From contig JAIQGA010000043.1 in assembly GCA_020072925.1 (NCBI GenBank), forward strand, positions 1 to 42,966: 42,966 nucleotides of DNA. Direction: 5' to 3'. Positions within the stretch are counted from its first letter, which is position 1. Each line of letters begins with the position of its first letter. This stretch comes from Terriglobia bacterium (GTDB lineage Bacteria > Acidobacteriota > Terriglobia > UBA7540). The notes below the pieces were generated by a model. It was not told the DNA's origin. It saw only the letters and a program-made list of their open reading frames with translations, and made no database searches. The position numbers and the translations under genes are program-made. Of the stretch, positions 1,509-36,099 are shown piece after piece.

Positions 1509-3398
1509 TCATTTGCGCACTTCCAGGGTGACCTCGCGCGTCAATTTCTCGCTACCGCGTAGGACAGTGACCTGGACCTTGTCGCCGGGCTTGTGGGCGC
1601 GCAGGGCGTAGGTAAAATCGTAGAGATTATCGATTTTCTTATCCCCGAACTGGATAAGGACATCGCCGCTTTTGAATCCCGCCTTGGCGGCAGGGCTGCC
1701 GTCGCGGACGTCGGCAAATTTCACTCCGTGCTCGATTTCGCCGAAGTCAGGAATCGAGCCGAAATACGGGCCGTAGCCGCCGCCCCCGCCACCTATCGCC
1801 GTATGCGAGGGCTCGGCTACCCGCACGTACTGCGGCTTCTCCTCGAGTTGGTCGAGTTCTCCGACCACATTCGCCACCAGGTCCACGACCTTGGCGCCGC
1901 CGTCAGCATTGATTTTCTCCCAGGTATCCGAGGGTTTGTGATAGTCGGAGTGCAGGCCGGAAAAGAAAAACAGCACCGGAACACTCTTCACGGCGAAGGA
2001 AGTATGGTCGCTTGCGCCATAGCCGGAGGCGGAGTAGCTCAGCTCGAAGCCGACTTGCCGGTTGGCGGTCTCGACCAGCTTTTTGAAATCCGGTGAGGTT
2101 CCTGTTCCGCCGACGTACAGCTTGTTGTTTTTGACGCGGCCGATCATATCCATGTTGAGCATGGCCAGGGTCTGATCCATCGGGCAGGCGGGATGGGCGG
2201 CGTAGAAATTCGAGCCGAGCAAGCCGCTCTCCTCGGCCGTGAAGGCGACAAACACCACGGCATGCTTGAGTTGCGCGCGCTCGCGCGCCAGGCCGTCCGC
2301 CAGTTCCAGCAGCCCGCTGGTTCCAGAAGCGTTGTCGTCCGCGCCGTGGTGAATCTTGCCGATCTGGCTGGGCGCCAGCGAGTGTTGATCGCCAAAGCCG
2401 AGGTGATCGTAGTGCGCGCCCAGTACGATGCATTGCTGGGCGTATTTCGCGTCCTGCCCCGGGAGAATCCCCACGACGTTCTCGACGCGCTTGCGGATGC
2501 GCTTCACGTCCACGTGCAGCGCCAGTTGCGCGGACGGGTCGAGCGCGAAAGAATGGATGGAAAGGTCTTTGTCAATGGCCGCGCGGAGTCCTTCGAGCGT
2601 CTGGCCGGAAGGCTTCAGCCACTCATCGGCGACCGCCGCCTTTACCTGAAGGGCCGCAATCTTCATTTCCTCCGGCCCCACCAGCGCGCCGAAGCGAAAC
2701 AGGTCGTCCGGCTCGCCGGGATGGTTCCCGAGGTCGTTCACCAGGATCATTCCCACCGCGCCATGGTTTTTGGCATTGATAGCTTTGTTAACAATCTCCG
2801 CATGCGTCGTCAGTTGCTTGCCTGCGAAGACGCTCTTCGCGTCGTTCTCCTGCGGCTCGTGGCGCAGCACGAGAACGATTTTGCCTTTTGCATCGATGCC
2901 ATTGTAATCGTCGTAGTTGAATTCCGGCGCGGTGATCCCGTATCCCGCGAAAACCATGGGAGATCGAAGCTGAACGTCTTCCGAAAAGCTGAAGGGGATG
3001 AAATCTCGTCCGGGTTTGAGAGCTACGTGGGCGCCCGCGCCCTCGTAGGTCAGGTGGTTTTTGCTCCCGAGCTTTGCGCCCACGGTGATGGGGAAATGCT
3101 GGAAATAGGTTCGCGAGTCGCCGGCGGGTTCGAGACCGAATTTCTTGAATCTTCCCTCGATGTAGCGGGCGGCTTCGTTGAGTTGGCGCGAGCCGTCGCC
3201 GCGCCCTTTCATCTTGTCGCTTGCAAGGACCTTGACAGGGTTCAGAAATTCCTGCGACGAATACTCTGGCTGAGCGTTTTCCTTTGGACTGGTTTTCGGG
3301 CCGGGAACAAGAATGGCCGCAGCCGTTAGCAGAATACAGGCCTTTAATTGGGAAGTTCCCGTGAGGGTTTGGCGTAGACGGCAAACAAGGCAGCTCAT
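1509..3398 (-). CDS. M28-family zinc aminopeptidase with PA and PDZ domains, exported
   Basis: A 629-aa protein. Residues 18-33 are a hydrophobic export signal; about 140-260 is a protease-associated insert (SPMVFAGYGI to GAVGMILVND); the M28 catalytic domain covers about 300-515; residues 545-629 form a PDZ domain (GSPAAKAGFKSGDVLIQF). Likely zinc ligands of the family are visible: H329 in GAHYDHLG, D354 in HGADDNASG, E390 in FTAEESG, D417 in NMDMIGR and H487 in SDYHKPSD. M28 enzymes remove N-terminal residues from peptides, probably here in the periplasm. Start ATG at 3398 is chosen because GGAG lies four bases upstream; a TTG seven codons earlier (3419) is a weaker alternative. The PDZ domain may bind substrate C-termini or regulate activity, which is inference. 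Confidence 0.9.
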   Translation of the reverse strand: MSCLVCRLRQTLTGTSQLKACILLTAAAILVPGPKTSPKENAQPEYSSQEFLNPVKVLASDKMKGRGDGSRQLNEAARYIEGRFKKFGLEPAGDSRTYFQHFPITVGAKLGSKNHLTYEGAGAHVALKPGRDFIPFSFSEDVQLRSPMVFAGYGITAPEFNYDDYNGIDAKGKIVLVLRHEPQENDAKSVFAGKQLTTHAEIVNKAINAKNHGAVGMILVNDLGNHPGEPDDLFRFGALVGPEEMKIAALQVKAAVADEWLKPSGQTLEGLRAAIDKDLSIHSFALDPSAQLALHVDVKRIRKRVENVVGILPGQDAKYAQQCIVLGAHYDHLGFGDQHSLAPSQIGKIHHGADDNASGTSGLLELADGLARERAQLKHAVVFVAFTAEESGLLGSNFYAAHPACPMDQTLAMLNMDMIGRVKNNKLYVGGTGTSPDFKKLVETANRQVGFELSYSASGYGASDHTSFAVKSVPVLFFFSGLHSDYHKPSDTWEKINADGGAKVVDLVANVVGELDQLEEKPQYVRVAEPSHTAIGGGGGGYGPYFGSIPDFGEIEHGVKFADVRDGSPAAKAGFKSGDVLIQFGDKKIDNLYDFTYALRAHKPGDKVQVTVLRGSEKLTREVTLEVRK

Positions 3399-3520
3399 GA
3401 TTCTCCGACGGACGCGCAAAGTGTGCGAGGGTCTCGCGCTCCGGCGGGCTCCGGCATTCGCCGCGCGCGATTCCAGGCGGATTCAACCCCGTTCAATCCA
3501 CCAAACCATCTTACCGGGTT

Positions 3521-4687
3521 TCACAGCGCGCGCAAGATCAAACACTTTAGATAATGAGTTTCGGGAACGGTGAGCAGGATGGGATGGTCGCGGGCCTGAG
3601 TGCGCCGTTCGACTACCGTCACGGTACGGTGAGCGTCGAGCGCCGCTTCGGCGATTGCGTCCAGTAGGTCGGCCTCGCTCACGTGGTAAGAGCACGAGCA
3701 AGTGATCAAGTATCCGCTCGGATTCAGAATCTTGAGCGCGCGCAGGTTCAATTCCTTGTATCCGCGCAGCGCCGACTCGACATTGGATTTCTGCCGGGCA
3801 AACGCCGGTGGATCGAGGACCACAATATCAAAGCGCTGTTTTTCCTGATCGGCGGCCTTCAGGAAATCGAAGCAGTTAGCCTCTTTCCATTCCGTGTTGG
3901 TGATGCCGTTCAGCTCCTGGTTGCGCCGGGCCAGGCGGAGCGCCTCCGGCGAGGAGTCAATTCCCAAAACCGTTTCGCATTGGCGCGCGAGCGTCAGCGC
4001 GAAGCCGCCCGTGTAGCAAAAACAATCGAGCGCGCGCCCGCGGGCGTAACCGCGTGCCGCCGCGCGGTTCTCGCGCTGATCCAGGAACCCGCCGGTCTTC
4101 TGGCCGCCCAGCAGGTCGAAGCAGAACTTCACGCCGTTTTCCTCCACCACGACTTCATGGATATTTTCACCGGCCAGCACGCCTTTTCGTTCGGGCAAGC
4201 CTTCCAGTCCGCGCACGGCCACATCGTTGCGCTCCAGGATAGCAAGCGGCGAGAACTCCTCTTGAAGAATTTCGACAATCTGGGAACTCAGCCGATCCAT
4301 GCCCTGGCTGAGCGTTTGGACGACGAAGCAGTCGCCGTACCGATCGACGATCAACGACGGGAGCAGGTCGCCCTCGGCGGCCACCAGGCGGAAGGCTTTA
4401 GCGCCGTCGACGATCGGCTCGCGAAATGCCGCCGCAGCGCGAATGCGCTCCGCGAGGAAGGCGCGGTCGAAGGGCCGCGTCTCGCGCGTCAGCAGGCGCA
4501 GGGCTATCTGCGACTTGCTGCTGTAAAGGGCTTGTCCCCAGAAATGCTTTTTGCGGTCCAGCACGCGCACGACTGCGCCCGGTTCGACTCCCGACGCGTC
4601 CGCAACGTCCGTGCGATATATCCAGACGTGCCCCGACCGGAGGCGTTCCACGCCACGCGCGGCGATCGCGACCTCAGCGAAGCTCAT
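3521..4687 (-). CDS. Class I SAM-dependent rRNA methyltransferase, RlmI-like (PUA + methyltransferase)
   Basis: A 388-aa cytoplasmic enzyme of the RlmI/YccW family, members of which methylate C5 of a cytosine in 23S rRNA. Residues 1-75 form a PUA RNA-binding domain (GHVWIYRTDV; GAVVRVLDRK). The methyltransferase core shows FLDQREN (201-207), SAM motif I DCFCYTGGFA (221-230), the acidic end of beta-2 in GIDSSPEAL, LDPPAFA (291-297), and CSCSYH (330-335). Length matches the family (about 390 aa). The exact rRNA position cannot be inferred. No strong ribosome site precedes ATG 4687, but the N-terminus aligns with expectation. It lies 83 bp beyond the 3' end of the decayed gene at 4771-5111. Confidence 0.9.
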   Translation of the reverse strand: MSFAEVAIAARGVERLRSGHVWIYRTDVADASGVEPGAVVRVLDRKKHFWGQALYSSKSQIALRLLTRETRPFDRAFLAERIRAAAAFREPIVDGAKAFRLVAAEGDLLPSLIVDRYGDCFVVQTLSQGMDRLSSQIVEILQEEFSPLAILERNDVAVRGLEGLPERKGVLAGENIHEVVVEENGVKFCFDLLGGQKTGGFLDQRENRAAARGYARGRALDCFCYTGGFALTLARQCETVLGIDSSPEALRLARRNQELNGITNTEWKEANCFDFLKAADQEKQRFDIVVLDPPAFARQKSNVESALRGYKELNLRALKILNPSGYLITCSCSYHVSEADLLDAIAEAALDAHRTVTVVERRTQARDHPILLTVPETHYLKCLILRAL

Positions 4688-28384: not shown

Positions 28385-30568
28385 ATGGCCTACGGGGATC
28401 CAACAATTCTCGTAAAGCGGCTGTATAACGATCTGGCACCATTACTTCGGGACGTAAAGGCGCACGCCGATGCTGCGCGACAATCCCTCGGTTTCCTACC
28501 CGAACAGGTGTACCAGGAGGCTGCACTCCAACAGAAAATACTCATTGCCGTCGCTTACCGGCCCTCGGGAGAGGAGTACGCAGGTCATCTGCTTTTTGGA
28601 GGGAGATTCCCTCACCTAAGGATTTTTCAGATCTACGTGCCTCCGGCTCAGCGTGGTCGGGGAATCGCCACGCTTCTAATAGACACGCTCGTCAAAGATG
28701 CAGAAATCGTCGGTTACCTTAGCATATCAGCGCGCGTGGCCCAGGACTTGACCGAAGCCAATCAATTTTGGCAGAGGAATGGGTTTTCGCTTGCGAGAAG
28801 CAGGCCCGGCGGTGCATCTACGGGAAGAACGATAAATGTCCGGGTTCGTGAACTTAGGACGCCAAATCTTTTCACGGTCTTAGGGCCCCACGCCACGGTC
28901 AATCTCGGTTTAAAGGCCCGGCTGTCGGAAAGGCGGCCGACCTATGCCCTTGATCTGAATGTAATGTTCGATCTGGTTAGGCAGAGGACTAATGCCGATT
29001 CGGTTACTCGCATCTTCAATGCCGCTTTGAATCAGGTTTTTGCTCTTCGGGTAACAGACGAGTTTATCAAGGAGCTGCGGCGGACATCCCTTGGGAACCC
29101 CGATCCCGTTTTGGAATTCGCCCTCTCTCTCCCGCAGTTTCCTGTGGTTCCCGTACAAGCGATCGAGCCGCTGACACGAGAACTCGTCAGCTTGGTGTTC
29201 CCGGCCCGTGGCAGAATAGGCCAGCTCACAGTACAAGATCAATCTGACCTGAGGCACTTAGCCTGTGCGATTCACCACAAGGCTTCGGGATTCATAACCA
29301 GCGAAAAGGCGATTCTAGCTTGTAGAGAGACGCTCCGCGAGAAATATAGCCTCGACATCGTTGGTACCGCTGAGCTTGGCGAATCCATCACTCCAGCGCA
29401 ATGGTCGATGGATCGGGAAATTAGGCTCGCCCACGGAAGCGAAATCTTCGTTTGCCAGTTAGATGAATCCCAACGAGCAATGACAGAGCGATTCCTCAGA
29501 GGGTTATCAATTCCTCCCGAAGTCGTGACAGCCGCGCTTGCTGCTGGCGCCACGGGGTCATTGCGGAGGCGGTTGCTCGTGAACTGTGGCTCGGCGGTTG
29601 TGGGGTTTGCCTCGTGGGACGCAGTGAACCCTCTCCGAGAAGAGGTAGAATTGTTCCTATTCGTTGACGAAGATCACTTGGGTGCGGAGCCGATCCTCGA
29701 TTGCCTAATAGATCGCGCCGTCACAGACTCCAGTGGGGTCTGCCCTATCGTTATTAGCTTGAGACTTTATCCGGGCCAAGAACTTTGTCGAACGGCCGCA
29801 GTGGCTCACGGGTTCCGTTCCGTGCAAGAACCGACCGGTGGCAACAGCGCCGTATTCAGAAAGATCTGCGTGGGGCGCGTGGTGACTTCCGCGGACTGGT
29901 CCTCTCTGCGAACGCAGCTCCAGAGGACCGCAAGCGTAAACCTCCCCGAGAGTGCTCCCCTGTACGAGGGGGAGGAGACGTGTATGGACGTCGTTACCCC
30001 CCAGGGGAATTCGGTCCGCCTCCCCCTAGCCGAGGTTGAATCACTTTTGGGCCCGGTTTTATTTCTTCTGCCGAACCGGAACGGTGCTATTGTTCCGATC
30101 CGACGAAGGTTCGTAGAGGAATTGTTCGGTGCGACAATCCAGGGTTCGCTCCTTCCTCGTGAGGAAGCTGCATTGTTTAGCGAGCGCGTGTATTATAGCC
30201 ATCCGAGAACGCTGGCGGTCCTGAAGGCCGGCATGCCAATAGTATTCTACGAATCTAAAGGGGACAGGGGTCGCGGCGCGGTGTTTGCGTGTGCGAGAAT
30301 AGTCCGGGTTGAGCTACGAGATTCTGGGGAGGTAACAAAGGATCTTGAACGACGGGGAGTTCTTAGCGCGAGGACCATGCGGAAGATGCGTTACTCTGGT
30401 CAAGTTGCGATTACATTTTTTGACAACATCATGCGACTCAGAGTTCCCGTGGCATTGCGTACCCAACGCAACATGCATTGTGTGGATGGAGCTAATCTCA
30501 TGACGGCACGCTTGCTTCGGGCTGATCAATTGCAGGCACTCCTCACGGCAGGCCAACTGAATGGCTAG
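28385..30568 (+). CDS. GNAT-PIN-(GNAT-like)-(PUA-like) multidomain protein
   Basis: A 727-aa cytoplasmic fusion. Residues about 40-140 are a GNAT acetyltransferase with the acetyl-CoA loop in YVPPAQRGRGIATLL (84-97) and FWQRNGFSLA (128-137). Residues about 185-330 look like a PIN nuclease: YALDLNVMFD (D190), DEFIKEL (E226), QSDLRHLACAIHH (D288) and SGFITSEKAIL. Residues about 345-495 resemble a second GNAT that lacks a clear Gly-rich loop (AVVGFASWDAV; VAHGFRSV). Residues about 515-720 are beta-rich, and the stretch GMPIVFYESKGDRGRGAVF suggests a PUA/EVE-like RNA-binding fold, which is tentative. It overlaps the ASCH gene by 8 bp. Base and codon use are less GC-rich than in its neighbours, so transfer is likely. 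No strong ribosome site is seen. Confidence 0.72.
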   Translation: MAYGDPTILVKRLYNDLAPLLRDVKAHADAARQSLGFLPEQVYQEAALQQKILIAVAYRPSGEEYAGHLLFGGRFPHLRIFQIYVPPAQRGRGIATLLIDTLVKDAEIVGYLSISARVAQDLTEANQFWQRNGFSLARSRPGGASTGRTINVRVRELRTPNLFTVLGPHATVNLGLKARLSERRPTYALDLNVMFDLVRQRTNADSVTRIFNAALNQVFALRVTDEFIKELRRTSLGNPDPVLEFALSLPQFPVVPVQAIEPLTRELVSLVFPARGRIGQLTVQDQSDLRHLACAIHHKASGFITSEKAILACRETLREKYSLDIVGTAELGESITPAQWSMDREIRLAHGSEIFVCQLDESQRAMTERFLRGLSIPPEVVTAALAAGATGSLRRRLLVNCGSAVVGFASWDAVNPLREEVELFLFVDEDHLGAEPILDCLIDRAVTDSSGVCPIVISLRLYPGQELCRTAAVAHGFRSVQEPTGGNSAVFRKICVGRVVTSADWSSLRTQLQRTASVNLPESAPLYEGEETCMDVVTPQGNSVRLPLAEVESLLGPVLFLLPNRNGAIVPIRRRFVEELFGATIQGSLLPREEAALFSERVYYSHPRTLAVLKAGMPIVFYESKGDRGRGAVFACARIVRVELRDSGEVTKDLERRGVLSARTMRKMRYSGQVAITFFDNIMRLRVPVALRTQRNMHCVDGANLMTARLLRADQLQALLTAGQLNG

Positions 30569-31076
30569 TCGAAGCGACATTCTAATCTCCGTCCTACCCA
30601 GGTATATTGATGAATTTCGGAGTGGTCGCAAGACGGTTGAATTGAGACGACGTCCTGTTAGAGTAGACCCTCACAGCCGGGTCTGGATATACAGCAAGAA
30701 GCCCCGAGGAATGGTTGAATTGCTTTGCCTTGTTGATTCGGTACACGTCCACTCTCCCAGAAAAATCTGGGATAGATTTGGTGAACAAACCGGGCTGGAG
30801 CGCCGTGACTTCGATCTTTACTTTCGAGGTGTCAAAAAAGGTTGTGCCATCGTATTCAGCGAGATTGTTTCCCTCGATCCCGTCTTGCCGCTTGACAGTA
30901 TCCGCGTCCGAGTCGGCTCCTTCTTGCCACCCCAATTCTTCCGCATCCTGCAAGCCGGCAGTCCCGAGTTGAGGCTCTTCCGATCAGCAGTGAATCTTGG
31001 TTTGACTGATATTTCGAAGAACCGATCTGACTCGTCGTTGCCTCCCCTGAGAAGGGAGCAGGCCGGTGCTTGGTAG
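30561..31076 (+). CDS. ASCH-domain protein
   Basis: A 171-aa protein. Residues about 5-110 match the ASCH (PUA-related) pattern: ILISVLPRYIDEFRSGRKTVELRRRP, with the signature E-L-R-R-R, then VWIYSKKPRGMVE and RGVKKGCAIVFSEIV. ASCH domains are predicted to bind RNA or modified nucleotides. The C-terminal 50 residues are less conserved-looking. Its ATG (30561) lies 8 bp inside the upstream GNAT-PIN gene, so translation is coupled and the two products probably act together, for example as toxin/effector and partner. That functional link is inference from the overlap. Confidence 0.8.
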   Translation: MASRSDILISVLPRYIDEFRSGRKTVELRRRPVRVDPHSRVWIYSKKPRGMVELLCLVDSVHVHSPRKIWDRFGEQTGLERRDFDLYFRGVKKGCAIVFSEIVSLDPVLPLDSIRVRVGSFLPPQFFRILQAGSPELRLFRSAVNLGLTDISKNRSDSSLPPLRREQAGAW

Positions 31077-31157
31077 TCTTTTTGATCCATAGGCGTGGGG
31101 GCGCCGCACTGGCCATAACGGCGCGCGAGATGACCCGGGCTGAGCGAAGGTATTTTC

Positions 31158-31427
31158 ATGAGCAAAAACAAGCCCATCGAACCGATTCCTGAGGAATTCG
31201 CGACTTGCGACCACGCCGCGGAATTCTGGGATACGCACGACACGACTCACTACCCTGGCGCCTTCCGCACAGTCAAGGTGGTCAGCGAGTTACGCCACCG
31301 GCACTATGAAATCCCCATCGCGCCAGATCTCGCGGAAGCACTCCGCGCGCGGGCGCGCAGACGTGGCGTTTCGGTCAGCCACTTGACCGATCAACTCCTT
31401 CGGCGAAACCTCCACACCACACGCTAG
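31158..31427 (+). CDS. CopG-type antitoxin-like protein, no obvious toxin partner
   Basis: An 89-aa protein whose sequence (IPEEFATCDHAAEFWDTHDT, then ELRHRHYEIPIAPDLAEALRARARRRGVSVSHLTDQLLRR) matches the CopG-antitoxin family seen with type II toxin-antitoxin modules. The C-terminal part is a ribbon-helix-helix-like DNA-binding region. GAAGG lies about eight bases before ATG 31158. No BrnT- or RelE-like toxin flanks it; the closest upstream genes are the ASCH and GNAT-PIN genes, 81 bp away on the same strand, so it may control them or be an orphan. Confidence 0.75.
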   Translation: MSKNKPIEPIPEEFATCDHAAEFWDTHDTTHYPGAFRTVKVVSELRHRHYEIPIAPDLAEALRARARRRGVSVSHLTDQLLRRNLHTTR

Positions 31428-32754: not shown

Positions 32755-32802
32755 GTAGCACGGCCATCTTGGCCGTGTTCACGGGCGGGATGCCCGTGCT
32801 AC
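32755..32802. repeat. Double palindrome, GTAGCACGG-type
   Basis: Two self-complementary units, CACGGCCATCTTGGCCGTG (32759-32777) and CACGGGCGGGATGCCCGTG (32780-32798), are also inverted copies of each other and are bounded by GTAG and CTAC. The structure can fold as one long hairpin or two short ones. It lies between the exported-protein gene and the blaI promoter and may act as a terminator. Confidence 0.6.
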
Positions 32803-32824: not shown

Positions 32825-32861
32825 TTGACATACGAAAATCTTACTAGTAAAGTTTTCGTAC
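32825..32861 (+). promoter_or_regulatory. blaI promoter with overlapping 30-bp palindromic operator
   Basis: TTGACA (32825-32830), a 17-bp spacer, and TAAAGT (32848-32853) make a good promoter. The start site would fall at or beside ATG 32862, giving a leaderless or nearly leaderless mRNA. The stretch 32831-32860 is an almost perfect palindrome: TACGAAAA and TTTTCGTA flank a central CTTACTAGTAA core resembling BlaI/MecI operators. BlaI bound here would block its own promoter. Confidence 0.75.
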
Positions 32862-33248
32862 ATGGACGCCGAACCACCTAAACCTACGAACGCCGAGCTG
32901 GAGATCCTGACAGTGCTGTGGAGCATCGGCCCCGCCACCGTGCGCGAGGTTTACAGCGTGATCAGCCGGCGGCGTCCGGCGCAATACAGCACCGTGCTGA
33001 AATTCATGCAGATCATGGCGGAAAAGGGCTTGGTGCGCCGCGACGAAAAGCAGCGTGCGCACGTTTACGAAGCGGCGCGCTCGCGCGAGTGGACGCAGCG
33101 CCAGCTCGCCGGGGACCTGATGGAGCGCGCGTTCAGCGGGTCCGCCAAGGCGCTGCTGGTGGGTGCGCTCTCGGCGCGAAAGACGTCTAAAGCGGAACTC
33201 GCGGAGCTGCGCAAGCTGCTGGATGAGTACCGGAAGGGGCAGAAATGA
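32862..33248 (+). CDS. blaI: BlaI/MecI-family winged-helix repressor
   Basis: A 128-aa cytoplasmic repressor. Residues about 8-75 form the winged helix (NAELEILTVLWSIGPATVREVYSVISRRRPAQYSTVLKFMQIMAEKGLVRR), followed by a dimerisation helix region (SAKALLVGALSARKTSKAELAELRKLLDEYR). BlaI proteins repress target operons until a partner M56 peptidase triggers their cleavage. The next gene encodes that partner and overlaps by ATGA. A palindromic operator sits directly upstream, so autoregulation is expected. No beta-lactamase is nearby; in many bacteria such pairs control other envelope-stress genes. Confidence 0.92.
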   Translation: MDAEPPKPTNAELEILTVLWSIGPATVREVYSVISRRRPAQYSTVLKFMQIMAEKGLVRRDEKQRAHVYEAARSREWTQRQLAGDLMERAFSGSAKALLVGALSARKTSKAELAELRKLLDEYRKGQK

Positions 33249-34735
33249 GATTTCTCGAAGCTTGGGTAGCAACTCCCCTGGCTCAGGCAGTGGGTTGGAC
33301 GCTGCTCCATTCCCTGTGGGAAGGGGCGATCATCTCGGCGGCGCTGGCGGCCTTGCTCGTGGCCGTGCGCTCGGCGCGTGCCCGCTATGCCGTGGCCTGC
33401 GTGGCGTTGCTTCTCTTGCTTGGGGGAATTGGCCTCACTTTTGTTCGCGTGATGCCGGAAGGGGTGCAGGGCCTGCACAGCGCAGGAACGCCCGCACTTC
33501 CGGCATGGACCGTTGGACCGGATAGGGATGCCAATGGCCCTTCGGGTCTTGGCCTTGCCGCGGTCGTGCCGTGGCTTACGCCGTTTTGGATTTTAGGCGT
33601 GTGGATTTTCGCTCTCGGGCAGCTGGCCGGTTGGATATCGCTCTCCCGGTTGCGGCGGCGCGGTGTGTGTTGTGCGCCTGAGCACTGGCAGAAGGAACTT
33701 GTCCGCTTGAGTGCACGGTTGCGCGTGTCGCGGCCCGTCCTGCTGCTGGAGTCCTGCCTGGCGGAAGTGCCGATGGTCGTTGGCCATATCCGGCCGGCAA
33801 TCCTCATGCCGATTGGACTGCTCGCCGGCTTGCCGGCGGGACAGATTGAAGCCATCCTGCTGCACGAGTTGGCGCACGTCCGCCGTTACGATTACCTGGT
33901 GAATGTCTTGCAACGCTCGGTGGAGAGCCTTTTGTTTTATCACCCCGCGGCTTGGTGGATCTCCCGGGTGATTCGCGCTGAGCGCGAAAACTGTTGTGAT
34001 GATGTGGTTGTCGCAGCGAGCGGCAATGTGCAGCAATACGCTGAGGCTCTGGCCACCCTGGAACAGAATCGTTGGTCAGGCAGGGAACCGGCGGTGGCGG
34101 CTAAAGGAGGGAATCTCGTGAAACGCATCCGTCGTCTGCTTTATCCGAAGGGCTCGAATGGCGCCTGGACGCCGTTATTCGCGGCAGCAATCCTTGTGGC
34201 AACCGGTGTGGTGGCTTTCGCCGCGTGGCCAGCGAAACCGCTCCAGCAGAGCTCAGCAGCCAAGCAGCGGCAGGCGGACCGCGCCGAGGCCTCGCCTTAT
34301 GAACGGTGGCTGAATCAGGAAGTGGTCTACATCATCACCGATGAGGAACGCGCCGCCTTCCAGAAACTCACCACCGATGAAGAACGGAACAAATTCATCG
34401 AGCAGTTCTGGGAGCGCCGCAATCCGAATCCCGGCAGCCCGGAAAACACCTTTAAGGAGGAACATTACCGCCGGATCGCTTTTGCCAACGAGCACTTTGC
34501 CACGGGTCGGCCAGGCTGGAAGACCGATCGCGGCCACGTGTATATTGTTTACGGCCCGCCGGATGAAATCGATTCCCACCCCGGGAAGAAGCCGTACCCC
34601 TTCGAGGAGTGGAGGTACCGGCACATCGAGGGCCAGGGCGACAAGGTGATCTTCGCATTCACGGACCGGAAGATGACGGGCGACTACCAGCTCGCTCCCG
34701 GACACCCGGTGAAGAAGAACTCAACGTATCCTTGA
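33245..34735 (+). CDS. BlaR1-like M56 membrane metallopeptidase fused to a GWxTD domain
   Basis: A 496-aa protein. Membrane segments lie at about 20-40, 48-68 and 100-130. The M56 zinc site is HELAH (H207, E208, H211), with a downstream acidic residue in RAERENCCDD. A further membrane segment lies near 310-335. Residues about 345-475 form a GWxTD domain (YERWLNQEVVYIITDEERAAF; FWERRNPNPGSPENTFKEEHY; VYIVYGPPDEI), with the name motif represented here by RPGWKTDRG. In the BlaR1 scheme the peptidase cleaves BlaI on sensing a signal; the GWxTD part, instead of a penicillin-binding domain, may be the sensor, which is inference. ATGA overlap with blaI. Confidence 0.88.
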   Translation: MRFLEAWVATPLAQAVGWTLLHSLWEGAIISAALAALLVAVRSARARYAVACVALLLLLGGIGLTFVRVMPEGVQGLHSAGTPALPAWTVGPDRDANGPSGLGLAAVVPWLTPFWILGVWIFALGQLAGWISLSRLRRRGVCCAPEHWQKELVRLSARLRVSRPVLLLESCLAEVPMVVGHIRPAILMPIGLLAGLPAGQIEAILLHELAHVRRYDYLVNVLQRSVESLLFYHPAAWWISRVIRAERENCCDDVVVAASGNVQQYAEALATLEQNRWSGREPAVAAKGGNLVKRIRRLLYPKGSNGAWTPLFAAAILVATGVVAFAAWPAKPLQQSSAAKQRQADRAEASPYERWLNQEVVYIITDEERAAFQKLTTDEERNKFIEQFWERRNPNPGSPENTFKEEHYRRIAFANEHFATGRPGWKTDRGHVYIVYGPPDEIDSHPGKKPYPFEEWRYRHIEGQGDKVIFAFTDRKMTGDYQLAPGHPVKKNSTYP

Positions 34736-35130: not shown

Positions 35131-35499
35131 ATGACAAAGAAGCTAGCGATGTTAGGGCTTAGCCTGCTCGTCGTCGGGTGTATGGCTTTGGCGGCGGCGG
35201 ACAAGACGTACTCCGGGACCGTCAGCGATGAGCACTGCGGCGCCAAACATGCCACTCCCAGCAAGGCAGCCGAAGAATGCGTGGAGAAGTGTGTTTCCGG
35301 CGGCGCCAAGTACGTGCTGGTTTCCAAAGGAAAGGTCTACAACCTCGATGCCCAGGATAAGTTCAAGGGCATGGGCGGAAAGCGCGTCTCCGTGAAGGGA
35401 ACGCTCAGCGGCGATACGATCACGGTCACGGAAGTTTCCCAGGGCTCCAGCATGATGCACATGTTGCATAAGAAGTCTAAGGAAAAGGCAACAACCTAA
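35131..35499 (+). CDS. Small exported protein (DUF5818-like), copy 1
   Basis: A 122-aa protein. The signal region KLAMLGLSLLVVGCMALAAA contains a lipobox-like VVGC, so it may be a lipoprotein or be cut after ALA. The mature part has TYSGTVSDEHCGAKHA, ECVEKCVSGGAKYVLVSKGKVYNL and GKRVSVKGTLSGDTITVTEV: a small beta fold with three Cys. The function of such proteins is unknown. AAAGGAGG lies about nine bases before ATG 35131. A paralogue follows at 35770-36099. The C-terminal tail is Met/His/Lys-rich (SSMMHMLHKKSKEK), which could bind metal; that is inference. Confidence 0.78.
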   Translation: MTKKLAMLGLSLLVVGCMALAAADKTYSGTVSDEHCGAKHATPSKAAEECVEKCVSGGAKYVLVSKGKVYNLDAQDKFKGMGGKRVSVKGTLSGDTITVTEVSQGSSMMHMLHKKSKEKATT

Positions 35500-35567: not shown

Positions 35568-35769
35568 GGCAGGGGTCCGCCGAGAGGAGTAAGGGAGGCT
35601 CCGCCGCCCATCCGCACTGCCCTTGCCGCGGAAGTTGGGAAGTAACCTTGACGCGAGATTGTCATCCAAAAGGATTGAAAGCGATTAAGGACGAAGGTAT
35701 GGGGAGGTGCCGCTCACGATACTCGCCTCGCCAATTCGCAATCTCGAAGTTGCCCTCAGGAGGACCGGC

Positions 35770-36099
35770 ATGAACAGGACGTTTACTTTACTGCTCGCAT
35801 TGTTGCTGGGAGTTGGCATGAGCTTTGGGGCCACGAAATCCGCCTCCAAGACTTTTGTCGGCGAAATCAGCGACTCGATGTGCGGGCTGAAGCACATGAT
35901 GCCCGGCGGCGCCAAGGCCTGCACGGATGAATGTGTGAAGGCCGGGGCAAAATATGTGCTGGCGGACCAGGCCGCGAAGAAAGTGTATGGACTGAGCGAC
36001 CAGGAGAAACCCAAACAGTTCTCGGGGGGGAAGGTGAAAGTGACGGGCACACTGAGCGGCGATACGATCCAGGTGACCTCGATCACTGCCGCCCAATAA
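35770..36099 (+). CDS. Small exported protein (DUF5818-like), copy 2
   Basis: A 109-aa paralogue of the protein at 35131-35499: signal peptide (FTLLLALLLGVGMSFG), then KTFVGEISDSMCGLKH, CTDECVKAGAKYVLAD, KVYGLSDQ and KVKVTGTLSGDTIQVTSI, with three Cys at matching places. It lacks the lipobox and the Met/His-rich tail of copy 1, so the two may be sorted or used differently. ATG 35770 is chosen because AGGAGG lies about six bases upstream; an in-frame start at 35707 would precede the signal peptide with 21 unlikely residues. A terminator separates the two copies. Confidence 0.82.
   Translation: MNRTFTLLLALLLGVGMSFGATKSASKTFVGEISDSMCGLKHMMPGGAKACTDECVKAGAKYVLADQAAKKVYGLSDQEKPKQFSGGKVKVTGTLSGDTIQVTSITAAQ

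Follow-up and report, generated by a model that had tools for sequence, protein, structure and literature searches.

A BlaI-M56 gene pair of an acidobacterial genome with a GWxTD domain in the place of the β-lactam sensor and a compact promoter, probably leaderless or nearly so

What does a BlaR1-like protease sense, and what does its BlaI repressor control, when another domain stands in the place of the β-lactam sensor? M56 proteases without that sensor are common in the genomes considered here, and a locus in the window (the whole stretch of DNA that was analysed, 42,966 nucleotides, contig G000:C22) offers a simple case, in which the genome has a single repressor with a single protease and promoter, and a defined operator is available for expression assays. 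The 6.5-Mb genome, assembled in 456 contigs, has its best-matching named relatives in the Acidobacteriota, many of them Bryobacterales/Solibacteraceae MAGs. The assembly encodes a single PF03965 protein and a single PF05569 protein, both at this locus; 22 named relatives encode 2-21 PF03965 proteins each.

The first gene (32862-33248, plus strand) encodes a BlaI/Penicillinase_R repressor of 128 amino acids (PF03965, 5.4e-26; 91.7 bits against a cut-off of 22.6, residues 9-122), which matches the winged-helix profile over the full domain. The second (33245-34735, plus strand) starts inside the end of the first, with a 4-nt overlap, and encodes a BlaR1-like M56 membrane metalloprotease of 496 amino acids with a C-terminal GWxTD domain (PF05569, 1.6e-26; 93.6 bits against a cut-off of 31, residues 108-295). 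The BlaI-M56 operon described by a sequence-only reading of this DNA is supported, and the arrangement is kept in relatives. The protease has a HELAH zinc motif at residues 207-211 (33863-33877, plus strand) and the second gluzincin motif, E248-x-x-x-D252 (33986-34000, plus strand), corresponding to the HEXXH and EXXXD motifs as defined for BlaR1 (PMC9834060, in the portion available); His-207, Glu-208, His-211, Glu-248, and Asp-252 are invariant across 21 aligned M56 proteins. An AlphaFold model of the protein (mean pLDDT 82.5) aligned with the cryo-EM structure of Staphylococcus aureus BlaR1 (8exs) with Z 20.0 and rmsd 4.1 over 248 residues (model residues 16-289). A predicted fourth transmembrane helix (residues 308-326; 34166-34222, plus strand) is helical in the model and is placed in the membrane by analogy with BlaR1. 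The BlaR1 equivalog NF000326, in turn, scored 76.8 bits against a cut-off of 400, its match being limited to residues 112-265, and a Pfam search listed no penicillin-binding/transpeptidase domain in the M56 protein. We also saw no β-lactamase gene in the operon, either in the list of open reading frames or by Pfam search. The gene pair of this soil bacterium is related to the penicillin sensor of staphylococci, but another domain, predicted to face outward, stands where that sensor binds the drug.

Some features of the surroundings and of related loci are noted here for completeness. The window also contains two adjoining genes for small DUF5818 proteins (35131-35499 and 35707-36099; one match slightly below the Pfam cut-off) and, at 28385-31427, three further genes: one for a 727-amino acid protein that matches GNAT and, weakly, PIN, one whose 171-amino acid product has no Pfam match, and one for an antitoxin of the CopG type. 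In one relative (L004, 1432-1828), the BlaI frame is broken near residue 53/54 and the promoter and M56-GWxTD gene are intact; in another (L015, 3134-3478 and 2190-2762, both minus strand), a second BlaI-M56 pair is divergent to the first, with a common intergenic region.

Just ~40 bp accommodate the -35 and -10 elements of the BlaI gene, two candidate repressor sites and the start codon. A perfect -35 element, TTGACA (32825-32830, plus strand), and a -10 element, TAAAGT (32848-32853, plus strand), are separated by a 17-nt spacer and together give 10/12 matches; in most relatives, TTGACA is found at the same place and a TANNNT hexamer at the position of the -10 element. Between the -35 element and the ATG lies a 30-nt dyad (32831-32860, assigned to neither strand; TACGAAAATCTTACT|AGTAAAGTTTTCGTA) with 13 of 15 positions paired. 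As the sequence-only reading had it, this palindrome covers the spacer and the -10 element, an arrangement that we found conserved in relatives (24 loci for the dyad), and leaves a single base (32861) before the BlaI ATG (32862). It is the only 30-nt dyad of this quality in the window; 40 dinucleotide shuffles contained 0.05 such dyads on average and never more than 1. In the window and its relatives alike, a candidate dyad operator with TAC...GTA ends is located in the BlaI gene's own promoter. Directly 5' of the promoter, we also noted an inverted repeat with 23-nt arms (GTAGCACGGCC.../...CCCGTGCTAC, 32755-32802); because, by eye, a similar string occurs upstream of a Planctomycetales locus (L033), this may be a dispersed repeat.

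The operator unit proposed earlier, TACGAAAA-n14-TTTTCGTA, gave way to a different one when upstream sequences were compared. The 30-mer is, as judged from this comparison, a composite of two overlapping 16-bp BlaI-type sites: predicted site 1, TACGAA-AATC-TTACTA (32831-32846, plus strand), and predicted site 2, TAGTAA-AGTT-TTCGTA (32845-32860, plus strand), which contains the -10 element and has a TA in common with site 1. The full form of these sites, TACGAA-N4-TTCGTA, is a common unit 5' of BlaI-M56 genes in Acidobacteriota, Planctomycetes, Bacteroidota, and others, where it is often doubled with starts ~21-22 bp apart and TTGACA in between; in the window's group, the two sites overlap by TA and start 14 bp apart. 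The TACGAA-N4-TTACTA/TAGTAA-N4-TTCGTA form is found in the window, L003-L008, and others; in L010, L012, L014-L017, and others, TAGTAA-N4-TTCGTA comes after a TACGAA-N4-TTCGTA that is full or nearly so. Across 24 aligned operators, the conserved halves are TACGAA/TTCGTA plus an inner TTACTAGTAA or TTCGTAGTAA, and the bases between them vary, including two in each 8-base arm of the earlier unit; TACGAAAA-n14-TTTTCGTA was for this reason rejected as a definition of the regulon. Pairs 2/29, 5/26, 12/19, and 15/16 are invariant, and pairs 7/24 to 10/21 are variable. Pair 3/28 is C-G in 21 operators and symmetrically swapped to G-C in the other three, and pair 6/25 shows a matched change from A-T to C-G in one (L009). 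Such joint changes in the outer arms would favor binding by a symmetric protein complex. Overall, 247 of 360 cells were paired, and 51 of 5000 column shuffles, run without control for relatedness, paired at least as many, so the arm covariation is supportive rather than strong. The conserved site differs from the staphylococcal-type core TACANNTGTA. That core is given for the BlaI/MecI operator in the available part of a paper that also doubts its sufficiency (PMC7253601); the window's protein belongs to the BlaI family, with an operator that may differ from the staphylococcal one.

The distance between promoter and start codon is also conserved. Among 29 distinct GWxTD loci (28 from the upstream-sequence set plus L149, re-fetched duplicates of the same locus being left out), the ATG lies 6-11 nt after a -10 element located by script in 26; of the others, L018 fits by eye (9 nt), as does L106 (8 nt, with an earlier in-frame ATG); L113, which belongs to a distant system, does not. 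A Shine-Dalgarno-like word at -15 to -5 is absent in 27 of the 29, the exceptions being L048 (GGAG) and L113. Further, in 22 of 29 loci (a list that includes L015 and L105 and is without L113 and L149), no ATG, GTG, or TTG occurs between the start ATG and the nearest upstream in-frame stop; in the window, this stop is the TGA inside TTGACA, again with no in-frame start in between. Transcription usually begins ~6-8 nt past the -10 element, so the leader would be zero to a few nucleotides long. The leaderless or nearly leaderless BlaI-M56 mRNA of the sequence-only reading is therefore a well supported prediction. The same look is shared by ~8 of some 66 non-GWxTD loci (L034, L038, L066, L089, L090, L105, L111, and L133; counted by hand, with L141, L143, L148, L149, and L152 filed as GWxTD and L147 cut by the contig end), most of the remainder having the ATG further from the -10 element, and GWxTD systems on other chassis (L113/L186 and L185) have Shine-Dalgarno-like leaders. 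Leaderlessness thus appears to go with this particular BlaI-M56 chassis rather than with GWxTD. Leaderless genes had been predicted for Acidobacteria among other groups (PMC3160421, in the portion available); among the matches listed in our literature search, nothing relevant by title linked BlaI with leaderless genes.

We think it probable that these parts form an autoregulated BlaI/BlaR1-type envelope switch with one promoter, relieved by proteolysis. Two BlaI dimers would bind the two overlapping sites, from just past the -35 element to the start codon, and block the compact promoter of their own operon; the autorepression that results could be tight, as had been proposed from the palindrome. 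The M56 protein would sit in the inner membrane with its zinc protease in the cytoplasm and the GWxTD domain facing the periplasm. On sensing an envelope ligand or state, GWxTD would activate the protease, which would cut BlaI and so induce the operon, receptor included. A point against the switch is that control of itself only gives it no obvious output; beyond the operon, an output might come from weakly bound BlaI sites or from further substrates of M56.

The sensor step of this proposal concerns a domain (34307-34675, plus strand) that is predicted, from its position relative to BlaR1, to lie outside the inner membrane. The match to TIGR04514 covers residues 355-459 (1.5e-36; 125.1 bits against a cut-off of 28, profile positions 1-105 of 105) and that to PF20094 residues 356-477 (8.6e-22). 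Its standing in the β-lactam sensor's place, as first read, is supported and is conserved in relatives. The domain is modeled with confidence (pLDDT 89.2). A Foldseek search of the PDB with the model gave no match at E 0.001 or better, which does not by itself make the fold new, and no PDB structure reached Z 5. A BamE-like (SmpA-OmlA) fold was considered for the C-terminal half of GWxTD; OsmE (Z 4.3) and BamE (Z 4.0) are below the level treated as meaningful. By sequence, the GWxTD profile matched no PDB chain, and hhalign gave a probability of <0.1% for BamE, with a BamE alignment of four rows only; these comparisons leave a BamE-like fold unsupported. We found no paper that uses the word GWxTD in the library searched.

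Outside M56 proteins, too, GWxTD occurs widely in the phylum, most listed matches being proteins of ~550-600 amino acids, and the window's genome encodes two free-standing GWxTD proteins, 60% and 71% identical over the matched part. The domain also changes places. In G400, a member of the same family (L167; G400:C217, 1684-3147, minus strand), BlaI shares 80% identity with that of the window and the promoter is related, with TTGACA and a degenerate operator, but the M56 protein has a thioredoxin/AhpC-TSA-like domain, containing CAPC, at its C-terminal end. Conversely, GWxTD with a TonB_C tail is found on distant BlaI-M56 pairs (M56 ~34-38%, BlaI 32-35% identical) in G405 (L185; G405:C531, 794-2977, minus strand) and G441 (L186; G441:C46, 1154-3355, minus strand). 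These observations suggest an interchangeable module, and the exchange makes a sensor role for GWxTD more likely. L187 resembles these M56-GWxTD-TonB_C loci, which have conventional leaders. Within the window's group, the M56-GWxTD protein has a TonB_C tail in 2 of 21 cases and a Poly_export domain (PF02563) in one (L013, 4001-6229), and L011 has a second GWxTD domain. We also built a tree from 44 GWxTD domains. Its 17 free-standing members, which come from one sampled family, all group on a single branch (99/95); the tree leaves the number of GWxTD-to-M56 joinings unresolved. L183 (G424:C121, ~3372-3992) is a fragment consisting of the last transmembrane helix and GWxTD; neither BlaI nor the protease part of M56 was found within the 5-kb stretch, and the fragment is possibly a remnant.

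A bolder form of the switch, which we put forward only tentatively, is a plug-in envelope-sensing module, in which a fixed BlaI and M56 chassis with its leaderless, double-overlapping-operator promoter would take swapped periplasmic domains (GWxTD or a thioredoxin-like domain, to which a TonB_C, Poly_export, or second GWxTD tail may be added). It would have itself as its only transcriptional target and an output that is proteolytic or envelope-borne, and its GWxTD domain and the free-standing GWxTD proteins would recognize one and the same envelope partner. The resemblance to those proteins can also be taken to mean that GWxTD is an effector or anchor, induction simply yielding more periplasmic GWxTD protein for the job that they already do. 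The lack of any other BlaI target in our searches (see below) speaks for this, as do the envelope roles suggested by the TonB_C and Poly_export tails. We nevertheless regard it as unlikely, because the domain occupies the BlaR1 sensor position and because its thioredoxin-like replacement behind an 80%-identical BlaI is what would be expected of an interchangeable input.

The genome scan for a BlaI regulon suggested by the sequence-only reading gave no target beyond the operon itself, which is the sole strong target found by pattern searches that tolerated at most one mismatch over the 12 bases of a single site and at most three over the 22 of the composite. In the 6.5-Mb genome, the composite operator at ≤3 mismatches occurs at the operon only, as does TACGAA-N4-TTACTA without mismatch. 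The alternative that BlaI is a global regulator, controlling other genes through degenerate sites of which the operon's is the strongest, could escape patterns of this stringency, and the title of Sala et al. 2009, cited in PMC9834060, gives Mycobacterium tuberculosis BlaI a genome-wide regulon. However, TACGAA-N4-TTCGTA at ≤1 mismatch gave nine matches, near the level of the reversed-pattern control (seven), and all nine fall inside open frames; the two nearest to gene starts were rejected as targets since they read as coding sequence, in what we take by eye to be genes for a zinc ribbon protein of the FmdB type and for an RRM protein. TACGAA-N4-TTMSTA is present in 22 of 23 genomes and marks the BlaI-M56-GWxTD promoter in 21 (in G494, that of its second copy; the own sites of G490 and G492 are altered and escape it). 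Elsewhere in the 23 genomes it occurs at 14 places, where the controls gave 7 and 8. Among the eight of these that we looked at, five are inside long ORFs, one is the promoter of a further BlaI-M56 pair, and two are intergenic (G504:C33, ~60 bp before a 780-amino acid ORF, and G491:C118); one of the other six (G000:C229) is inside an open frame. The sites in G499-G502 and G504:C177 were rejected as conserved second targets, being inside long ORFs, where three share one coding segment. These results, together with the small, paired-site regulons of the Clostridium thermocellum BlaIs discussed below, make a global regulator seem quite improbable to us. A search that started blindly from the composite operator in 151 genomes, our own included, gave 13 places in 13 genomes against five control matches on both strands. 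Eleven precede BlaI-M56 pairs: eight, the window's included, stand before M56 and a BlaI of the window's type (62-100% identical), and three before other pairs (BlaI 32-37%); the remaining two have neither. Three loci of the same type were new (L192, L196, and L197), each with the ATG one base past the dyad.

Finally, a β-lactam response like that of BlaR1, with GWxTD sensing cell-wall damage caused by the drug, would fit the shared protease and repressor families but is very improbable, as the protein has no penicillin-binding domain, the operon has no β-lactamase gene, and no conserved neighbor that could be a target was seen by eye in the seven loci compared.

Judging by its listings, our literature search gave nothing related on BlaI-M56 or peptidase M56 in Acidobacteria, on M56-BlaI-TonB, or on BlaR1-thioredoxin; the systems nearest to the locus are compared here. 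From the GWxTD family (PF20094/TIGR04514), whose curated cut-offs the window's domain passes, the locus differs in that most listed members lack an M56 match, and the natural swap between GWxTD and a thioredoxin-like domain could help to assign a function to this uncharacterized domain. The pair of M. tuberculosis, BlaI (Rv1846c) and a BlaR homologue, has, as described in the available part of PMC9834060, an M56 protease without a β-lactam sensor domain, as in the window, but unlike the window has no equivalent sensor domain at all. C. thermocellum BlaI_1845 and BlaI_0696 have regulons of one and three operons and need two inverted-repeat pairs per target (PMC8457756, in the portion available), so there is precedent for regulation of the operon alone; the very small regulons, mainly the own operon, and the paired repeats are alike, whereas the motif (GACTAT/GTCTAT) and the extra operon genes differ, and the accessible text does not mention GWxTD. 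With S. aureus BlaI/BlaR1 (bla and mec), the locus has in common a BlaI-type repressor, an M56 membrane protease, its HEXXH and EXXXD motifs, and its fold; it differs in having GWxTD in place of the penicillin-binding sensor, a TACGAA-N4-TTCGTA-type operator, no β-lactamase target and, judging by its geometry, a near-leaderless promoter.
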